From positions 1-34,455 of the forward strand of contig JACWAH010000013.1 of assembly GCA_014874365.1 (NCBI GenBank): DNA of 34,455 bases. Reading direction: 5' to 3'. Positions within the stretch are counted from its first letter, which is position 1; each line of letters starts with the position of its first letter. Positions 10,987 through 12,923 of this stretch are shown here, in pieces. Made by a program: the position numbers and the translations under genes. The notes under the pieces are model-generated. The model did no database searches and was not told where the DNA came from. It saw only the letters and a list, made by a program, of their open reading frames with translations. The stretch comes from Thermoplasmatales archaeon. Lineage in GTDB: Archaea; Thermoplasmatota; Thermoplasmata; Thermoplasmatales; Thermoplasmataceae.

Positions 10987-11442
10987 ATGGACAACACAAT
11001 AACATTTACAAAAGATGGAATAAAGGTGAGAGAGACTGTTTCAAATCCGCTGATTCCAAACACAGAAAGGCAATCCATTGTTACATACGATAAAATAACG
11101 GAGTATAACCCACTTGACATTCATGTTGTCGGAATTGTTCCCAGAGTTGTTGACGGAACATTGAAAGAGATAGAGTTCAGACTTGGGGATGAAAGTGATG
11201 TTTCCTTTCATGATTTGGTTTGGTTCAAGTCTAAGGTTCCTGAAATACTTGCAGATGGAAAGGAGTGGAAAAAGGAAAGCATATACAAGAAACTGGAGCC
11301 GCAATTTAATCCATCCGACTATAAGAGATTGAAAAGTGGAGGGGCAAGAGGCTATGCCAACTTAACTACGGCACTGAACATGTTAAAGAAAGAGGATGTT
11401 CTGGAAAATCCAAGAAAGGGTATGTGGAAGTTAAGGAAATGA
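10987..11442 (+). CDS. Hypothetical protein with probable C-terminal winged-helix
   Basis: The 151-residue protein is not recognised as a whole. The C-terminal third (ANLTTALNMLKKEDVLENPRKGMWKLRK in outline, residues about 123-151) has the shape of a winged helix-turn-helix: recognition helix, then a basic wing ending in W-K-L. The middle has a hydrophobic strand (LDIHVVGIVPRVV) and an acidic segment. It has its own TATA-like box and lies 91 bases upstream of the RelE-type toxin on the same strand. It could therefore be a local regulator or an atypical third component of that locus. That link is inference from position only. It sits among transposase relics in accessory DNA. Confidence 0.7.
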   Translation: MDNTITFTKDGIKVRETVSNPLIPNTERQSIVTYDKITEYNPLDIHVVGIVPRVVDGTLKEIEFRLGDESDVSFHDLVWFKSKVPEILADGKEWKKESIYKKLEPQFNPSDYKRLKSGGARGYANLTTALNMLKKEDVLENPRKGMWKLRK

Positions 11443-11533: not shown

Positions 11534-11794
11534 ATGGCGTATTCCGTAAAATCCACTGATGCATTCGAAAAGGAATTCTCCAAGAATCACAGAGACAAGA
11601 AGGAATGGTTACTTCGCATTGTTGAGAGATTGGAACAGGAACCACAGTCAGGAAAGCCATTGAGAGGTAAACTTCACGGGTTATGGCAGCTGAGGATAGG
11701 CTCTTTCAGAGTGTGGTATGAGATAAATGATGAAGAAAAGAAAGTAACGCTCAGAGCCATCCTTCACAAGGACGAAGCCAAGAAGTTCTATTAG
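11534..11794 (+). CDS. RelE/ParE-family toxin
   Basis: The 86-residue protein shows the family pattern along its full length: AFEKEFSKN near the N-terminus, helix RIVERLEQEP, then PLRGKLHGLWQLRIGSFRVWYEI (residues about 42-64 in outline), then a strand TLRAILHK. RelE-type members cleave mRNA on the ribosome and ParE-type members target gyrase; the sequence here does not decide between them. The usual His-Arg-Tyr end is replaced by LHKDEAKKFY. No antitoxin frame was found directly upstream. The probable antitoxin lies downstream on the opposite strand, overlapping by four bases, which is unusual. No clear TATA box was seen at the right distance. Confidence 0.85.
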   Translation: MAYSVKSTDAFEKEFSKNHRDKKEWLLRIVERLEQEPQSGKPLRGKLHGLWQLRIGSFRVWYEINDEEKKVTLRAILHKDEAKKFY

Positions 11795-11964
11795 AGTTCC
11801 TTGAGAAACTCTCTTACGCTTCTGACCTTGCCTTTTTGTATGTCCTGTTCACTTCTTTCCAGCTGGTCCATGACATACCCATTTTCAAGAGTCTCAATGG
11901 TGGCCTCAATGCTATCCAGATCAGATTTAGGTATGCTTACAAGTCTAGATTTGGTTGTAGTCAT
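11791..11964 (-). CDS. Probable RelB-like antitoxin, convergent with the toxin
   Basis: A 57-codon minus-strand gene starts at ATG 11964 and ends at TAA 11791-11793, inside the last codons of the toxin. The protein begins MTTTKSRLVSIPKSDLDS, giving a short DNA-binding-like strand-helix. It ends with EQDIQKGKVRSVREFLKEL, the acidic-then-basic helix pattern typical of RelB-type antitoxins that wrap RelE toxins. A TATA-like TATTAAAA and a palindrome lie upstream. A normal locus would have this gene just before the toxin on the same strand. The tail-to-tail order means the two are transcribed separately and their mRNAs can pair at the 3' ends. Antitoxin identity is a pattern-based call. Confidence 0.7.
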   Translation of the reverse strand: MTTTKSRLVSIPKSDLDSIEATIETLENGYVMDQLERSEQDIQKGKVRSVREFLKEL

Positions 11965-11985
11965 TATGCATACTCATATACTTTT

Positions 11986-12009
11986 AGATTTTAATACCTT
12001 TTGGTATGC
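11986..12009 (-). promoter_or_regulatory. Antitoxin promoter with palindromic operator candidate
   Basis: On the minus strand TATTAAAA (11988-11995 region) sits about 27 bases before the ATG at 11964. Directly upstream of it and touching it is the palindrome ATACC-TTTT-GGTAT at 11994-12007. A GTATGC at 12004-12009 is mirrored by GCATAC at 11968-11973 near the start codon. A palindrome on the TFB/TATA site fits autorepression by the antitoxin or toxin-antitoxin complex; that role is inferred. Confidence 0.45.
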
Positions 12010-12109
12010 TCTATGGCGGAAATCGACTGTCATGATTATGTCCAGAAGCCATCCTGATCGATTCGCTGATTGATCTATTCATTGATCCTATCTTTGCCCT
12101 ATTGTATCA

Positions 12110-12880
12110 CTACAATTCAATTAAAGTCTTTTCGAGCAGTGATTTCTGATCCTTTGTGAGTTCCACATGTGCATGTGACCCATTGCTGTAAGCGACTTCC
12201 TTTATTCCTGAAAGGATTCTTTCAGTCTCTGCATAGACAAATTGCACCTGTGAGCGATCATCCTCATCATGGAATATCCAAGGATGGAGGGGAATATCCC
12301 TGTCCTTGTCCCTTCCTCTGTTCTTGCATACACCGGTTGCATGGATGACCTGGAATGCATGAAAGCTTTCTCCATCACATCCTTCCCCTTGTATATCCTG
12401 AGTATCTCATCCGCACCGATCATGGTATTCGTGAATAGGACAAAGAATCCCATCCTTCCTGTTTTCGCCTGTATGGCATTGCGTCTCAGCCTGTATGTGA
12501 ACGATCCTTACGATGCTCTTAGGTCGAAGTACCTGGCCATGTTTCTTGCTGCAGAAATTGCAGTGTGCATCCTATCCTGAGCCGAATGCCTTGCCCTAGA
12601 GGGCCTTCAGATCTCTTTCCTTGTCCGATATACTGGAATAGAATGCCTGCATCCTGTCTGCCCTGCTCTGTACGGAGAAGTACACAACATATCGCAATGA
12701 GTCAATGTGGTGGCTCGTTACCGTTCTTTCTTGGCTGTTCTTTCGAATTCGCTTTATTGATCTCGCAGGATTATGATTCAAATAGCTGATTGCAACGCTA
12801 GAAGAATGTTCGTATACGGGCAGAACACAATTCCGATCCATAGCATCCCCATTGATCAGTACTGGAAAGTGAACCATAAT
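12110..12880 (-). pseudogene. Decayed DDE transposase (C-terminal half)
   Basis: Several minus-strand frames give consecutive pieces of one transposase. 12877-12596 contains RYVVYFSVQSRADRMQAFY and SSISDKERDLKAL. 12590-12202 contains GFFVLFTNT, MIGADEILRIYKGKDVMEKAF (the region with the catalytic Glu of the YREKD/IE type) and PVYARTEEGTRTGIF. After a frameshift near 12205, the C-terminus reads LSGIKEVAYSNGSH and ends at TAG 12110-12112. At least one internal TAA (near 12510) and two frameshifts break it, so it is inactive. The pattern matches IS4/IS1634-like archaeal elements. No terminal repeats were identified. Confidence 0.7.
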
Positions 12881-12923
12881 AATCTGGTGAAAACATATTC
12901 ATCAAAAAAATTAAAAGTTGATT

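Follow-up and report, generated by a model that had tools for sequence, protein, structure and literature searches.

The window, the whole stretch of 34,455 nucleotides analyzed here, contains two small genes that meet tail to tail: a RelE/ParE-type toxin gene on the plus strand and, on the minus strand, a 57-aa ORF that probably encodes its antitoxin (Table 1). The host is an acidophilic Thermoplasmatales-type archaeon. The window also encodes a thermosome, the large subunit of archaeal DNA polymerase II and other archaeal genes, and its close relatives were Thermoplasmatales and Thermoplasmata MAGs, I-plasma among them.

Table 1. Coordinates of the features of the convergent locus in the window.
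Feature	Position	Strand	Details
151-aa ORF, Mrr_N-like C-terminal part	10987..11442	+	Mrr_N match below Pfam cut-off
RelE/ParE-superfamily toxin	11534..11794	+	86 aa, intact; ATG 11534, TAG 11792-11794
4-base overlap of both stop codons	11791..11794		Spacing equal in other convergent copies
Predicted RelB-type antitoxin, toxin-binding (C-terminal) half, without RHH domain	11791..11964	-	57 aa; ATG 11964, TAA 11791
Conserved putative antitoxin promoter region GCATACCAAAAGGTATTAAAATCTAAAAGTATATGAGTATGCATA	11965..12009	-	TATA-like box ~30 nt before ATG; probably leaderless type
Breakpoint where homology to other units ends	12010..12010		~510-nt element beyond it absent from window

Toxin and antitoxin genes

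The RelE/ParE-type toxin named in the initial annotation was borne out by profile and fold searches. Its product matched PF05016 in Pfam (8.8e-9, 36.3 bits vs. 23) and RelE_StbE in NCBIfam (9.7e-7, 29.2 vs. 27.9), both above the curated cut-offs, and a profile search of the PDB returned RelE toxins (Rv2866, T. thermophilus and M. tuberculosis RelE). Moreover, RelE folds were the best PDB matches of the AF2 model (pLDDT 85), which matched 2khe with a TM of 0.83, 1wmi_A with 0.74, 3g5o with 0.73 and 3bpq_B with 0.69. Judged from sequence and model, its activity may be either RelE-like or ParE-like. On the upstream side of the toxin, where a conventional antitoxin was looked for, no antitoxin-like ORF was found; the nearest ORF there encodes the 151-aa Mrr_N-like protein.

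Profile searches had been proposed for both products; the toxin gave a match to RelE/ParE families, and the 57-aa ORF matched no family in Pfam or NCBIfam. Profile and fold searches of the PDB with the 57-aa family likewise gave no match, solved RelBs included. The RelB-like nature of this minus-strand product, also claimed initially, was instead supported by comparison with RelBs of the same archaeal family, in which ordinary co-directional relB–relE operons are present as well. The canonical RelB of these operons is an 86-aa protein encoded directly upstream of relE and consists of an RHH/VAPB_antitox-like N-terminal half and a C-terminal half. The 57-aa family aligned to the C-terminal half of the RHH-RelBs (hhalign E 9.6e-8; BLASTP 40% over 55 aa), and the AF2 model of the 57-aa protein showed three helices and no DNA-binding fold. 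By alignment and model, the 57-aa protein is predicted to be a RelB cut down to its toxin-binding part, with the DNA-binding half missing. As it lacks that half, it should neutralise the toxin and not autoregulate.

Homologues of the antitoxin were found in 30 of the 77 genomes of the family, and no relatives were found in the IMG/VR viral and PLSDB plasmid collections. Pairwise dN/dS was ~0.04 for the toxin, had a median of ~0.04 for antitoxins with an intact toxin and was 0.07 for antitoxins that have lost their toxin or lie beside a broken one; many of the dS values in these comparisons are saturated. Judged by its homologues and low dN/dS, the 57-aa ORF is a real gene.

The 57-residue homologues do not stay away from RelE genes, a possibility that the initial annotation had raised, and adjoin them in three arrangements. 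Five loci (L033, L036, L038, L039, and L043) carry a relB–relE–X triple in which X, the last gene, encodes a 55–61-aa homologue; at L038, X overlaps relE by 11 nt. X in these triples is a second RelB-like gene without a DNA-binding part that overlaps or abuts the relE end.

In ~eight loci in all, among them L120, L121, L124, and L132-L134, the toxin is absent and the 57-aa homologue occurs with a zinc-ribbon gene, which lies between the defence gene and the antitoxin and is co-directional with, and placed after, the 57-aa homologue. At these named loci and at L166, a 53–55-aa zinc-ribbon protein (CPxC...CSxCG) occupies the toxin's slot. Since the 57-aa protein is found there without a toxin, it may have another role in those loci.

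The head-on arrangement and its spread

The tail-to-tail overlap of four bases at the stops, as initially described, is present in the window (11791-11794). The same 2-nt spacing of the last sense codons was found in the convergent copies L045, L046, L047, L048, L073-L078, L081, L159, C22, and C23. The last two are further copies in the same genome and are named after their contigs; each lies at a contig end that cuts the toxin, and their antitoxins are 91–93% identical to that of the window. Close toxin relatives stand head-on to the antitoxin at equal spacing wherever both genes are present, and the geometry remains unchanged down to ~70% protein identity (L081). Convergent copies span many genera of the family, and the intact pairs have several distinct left flanks. 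Other families within the class carry copies too (G266 and G199), which suggests transfer.

Several copies are incomplete. The toxin is broken or shortened beside an open antitoxin at L017, L023, L025, L027-L029, L031, L079, and L082, the imbalance to be expected between a poison and its antidote if the 57-aa product is protective. One converse case was seen: at L076 the toxin is intact and the antitoxin opposite it has an in-frame stop. L083 is an exception, with a frameshifted toxin and an antitoxin reduced to its last codons, and L080 (G032) ends within the toxin. Among the relatives compared, a close and intact homologue of the toxin was never seen on a stretch without an adjoining antitoxin gene. 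Across the aligned copies, the convergent pair is a recurring fixed format and no local accident.

The two genes also differ in their upstream sequences. The antitoxins have an A/T box of 7–15 nt at the expected distance, and an SD-like motif is absent from all copies but one; in the aligned copies the promoter-like region ACCAAAAGGTATTAAAATCT lies ~30 nt 5' of the ATG. The toxins have no TATA-like run 19–38 nt upstream, the longest A/T run there being 2–6 nt, and several carry SD-like motifs at -8 to -13. The window toxin follows this pattern, with no TATA-like box and an SD-like GGTG 8 nt 5' of the ATG. By these sequence features, the toxin lacks a conserved promoter and the antitoxin has a conserved promoter-like box. 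The initial view that the two convergent genes need separate expression was upheld.

Defence-gene neighbours and a structured element

Of the 36 loci with a readable neighbour next to the toxin, 32 have that neighbour oriented toward the unit, a count in which some loci are near-duplicates, hence dependent, and a few ORFs are doubtful. Family matches among these neighbours were to type III Res, PLD-SNF2 helicase, type II methyltransferase/REase and AriA-like AAA proteins, and two neighbours that were searched had no family match. The toxin usually lies 3' of a defence gene that runs in the same direction; at L123, L131, and L152, the Res stop precedes the toxin or its remnant by 46–56 nt. In the window this position is taken by the 151-aa Mrr_N-like ORF, which is co-directional and separated from the toxin ATG by 91 nt. 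The ORF is a near-orphan, and the one distant relative found (L179, 25%) lies beside an apparent IS3-type transposase. With a near-orphan as left neighbour, the window copy has a tentative link to defence, supported by the position of this ORF and its weak Mrr_N match.

Elsewhere the order is defence gene, toxin, opposing antitoxin and, on the promoter side of the antitoxin, a conserved structured, apparently non-coding element of ~430–510 nt. In the alignment of copies, homology began ~10–16 nt 5' of the toxin ATG and reached ~+730 from the antitoxin end; no conserved sequence upstream of the toxin extends past these ~10–16 nt, and the left homology edge lies just 5' of the ATG. The element is ~510 nt long with a core of ~430 nt, is strongly conserved in sequence and was found in 28 of the 77 genomes of the family (e.g. 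L013:987-1500, on contig C22 of the host's own genome, and L118:12476-12994). It is either followed by the antitoxin at a fixed distance or abuts the 3' end of an opposite-strand gene. It was also observed, in fixed orientation, at the 3' termini of restriction or other defence operons, with or without the toxin–antitoxin pair.

The element folded better than shuffled sequences, with z values of -2.8 on one strand and -2.65 on the other. Its consensus fold comprised 106 pairs, 9 of them with compensatory changes, and the covariation term was near zero; with so few compensatory changes, the structure rests on energy, without proof from covariation. A search of Rfam returned 0 matches at the gathering cut-off and one chance-level match below it, and IMG/VR contained no exact match to a core motif of the element. 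Protein coding was considered and rejected: some copies contain long plus-strand frames, yet non-triplet indels shift the frame. From its sequence, the element is apparently non-coding.

The window copy has lost the element, of which no relic is left in the window, and retains both ORFs intact. The 34 bases from 12010 onward recur at C13:22066-22099, and 144 nt of the window (12084-12227) recur at the end of contig C26. These repeats at and after 12010 suggest that a repeat or insertion-sequence edge parted the pair from the element; Pfam confirmed no transposase family in the relic region 12010-12900.

Interpretation and relation to known systems

On these comparisons, the window pair is probably a genuine RelE-type toxin–antitoxin module that is convergent and part of a defence-associated unit. 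In such a unit, the toxin would be translated from read-through of the upstream defence operon, and the antitoxin would be made constitutively from a leaderless transcript of the opposite strand and would bind and neutralise the toxin. If the unit were lost, or if antitoxin synthesis collapsed upon infection or displacement, the toxin would be freed, and the cell would be addicted to the defence cassette or the cassette backed up by growth arrest. We suggest only tentatively a wider reading, which remains doubtful, that the element and the head-on RelE/RelB-half pair (or the zinc-ribbon gene) may form an exchangeable addiction-and-mobility cassette. Here the element would mark the 3' ends of restriction/defence operons across Thermoplasmatales-type archaea, the toxin would be the last operon gene and the antitoxin would be driven from the element side.

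The pair might also be decaying selfish debris, once dispersed by mobile DNA and now drifting away, with a functionless gene order and a window copy that is being lost. Many copies consist of a broken toxin or an antitoxin remnant alone, contigs C22 and C23 stop inside their copies, and at 12010, beside repeated sequence, the window copy is cut short. However, both window ORFs are intact, dN/dS is low for toxin and antitoxin among intact copies, and the geometry is constant to ~70% protein identity (L081), and we regard decay as unlikely. The initial annotation had instead suggested a local inversion in a relic-rich region as a possible origin of the arrangement. Canonical relB–relE operons do exist in the family, but an inversion of such an operon in this genome is practically excluded: the same geometry recurs in C22 and C23, across many genera and in families other than this one, and the 57-aa antitoxin, unlike canonical antitoxins, has no RHH half.

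Control by protein plus RNA, in which the converging mRNAs form a duplex and antitoxin transcription also silences the toxin mRNA, would fit the head-on order and the overlap of the stops, which every intact copy shows, and no obvious terminator was seen in the sequence between the genes. Nevertheless, the ORFs overlap by 4 bp only, and conservation at the protein level leaves no independent sign of RNA-level selection. Because the antitoxin is protein-coding and under purifying selection, RNA control would be an additional layer, to which we assign a low probability. The 57-aa protein might otherwise serve the defence genes or the element and travel with relE without being its antitoxin. Its retention with the zinc-ribbon gene in the toxin-free loci points in this direction, as does the position of its gene directly after the element at a fixed distance where both occur. 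This role is improbable in view of the homology to the toxin-binding half of the RHH-RelBs and the presence of a homologue in the relB–relE–X triples.

Read as a toxin–antitoxin module, the pair shares features with several known systems. It resembles aRelBE of Pyrococcus horikoshii (1WMI) and Methanocaldococcus jannaschii (3BPQ) in the RelE fold and the short helical antitoxin. Known aRelBE loci are co-directional operons, whereas the window genes converge and the window antitoxin has its own promoter-like box. The likeness to type II RelBE lies in the homology of the antitoxin to the RelB toxin-binding region; the N-terminal DNA-binding domain and the co-directional operon are absent. In PaaA2–ParE2 (5CW7), an antitoxin without a DNA-binding domain neutralises a RelE/ParE-fold toxin, and the window pair similarly combines a RelE/ParE-fold toxin, with a fold match to 5CW7, and an antitoxin without such a domain. 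The antitoxin and toxin of PaaR–PaaA–ParE share a transcript with a separate repressor, PaaR, whereas the window genes converge, and no separate repressor gene of the PaaR type was found next to them.

Convergent genes whose 3' ends meet are also known from the type I toxin–antitoxin loci fst/RNAII and bsrG/SR4, which have a 3' overlap (PMC3874152); their antitoxin is an RNA, in contrast to the conserved ORF with low dN/dS in the window. In archaeal PabI restriction-modification systems, the R and M genes, a toxin-like and an antidote gene, likewise stand tail to tail (PMC4615327), but they encode a restriction glycosylase and a methyltransferase rather than a RelE/RelB pair. Among open-access papers, no convergent type II RelBE locus was found, the search returning type I cases, reviews and unrelated papers instead. 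Solo antitoxins have been described in large-scale studies such as PMC2701414, whose main text does not contain the word 'convergent'.

A permanently convergent protein pair, with an antitoxin unable to repress its own operon, would depart from the type II rules of co-translation and conditional cooperativity. If the toxin is indeed coupled to the end of a restriction operon, abortive backup or addiction to a defence cassette could be achieved with simple genetic wiring. The structured element beside defence genes is the newest part of these findings, and its recurrence hints at a so far undescribed way to move or regulate archaeal defence genes.

Integron cassettes are marked by the tyrosine recombinase IntI and by attC R/L boxes at the cassette junctions, and attC is far smaller than the element. 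The core of the element (e.g. alignment A5 columns 401-455 and 530-586) contains two hairpin modules, with stems AATCAAAA/TTTTGATT vs. GGCTCAAA/TTTGAGCC, and both modules have the common internal motif GAGGGGT...GGGGTGAA.
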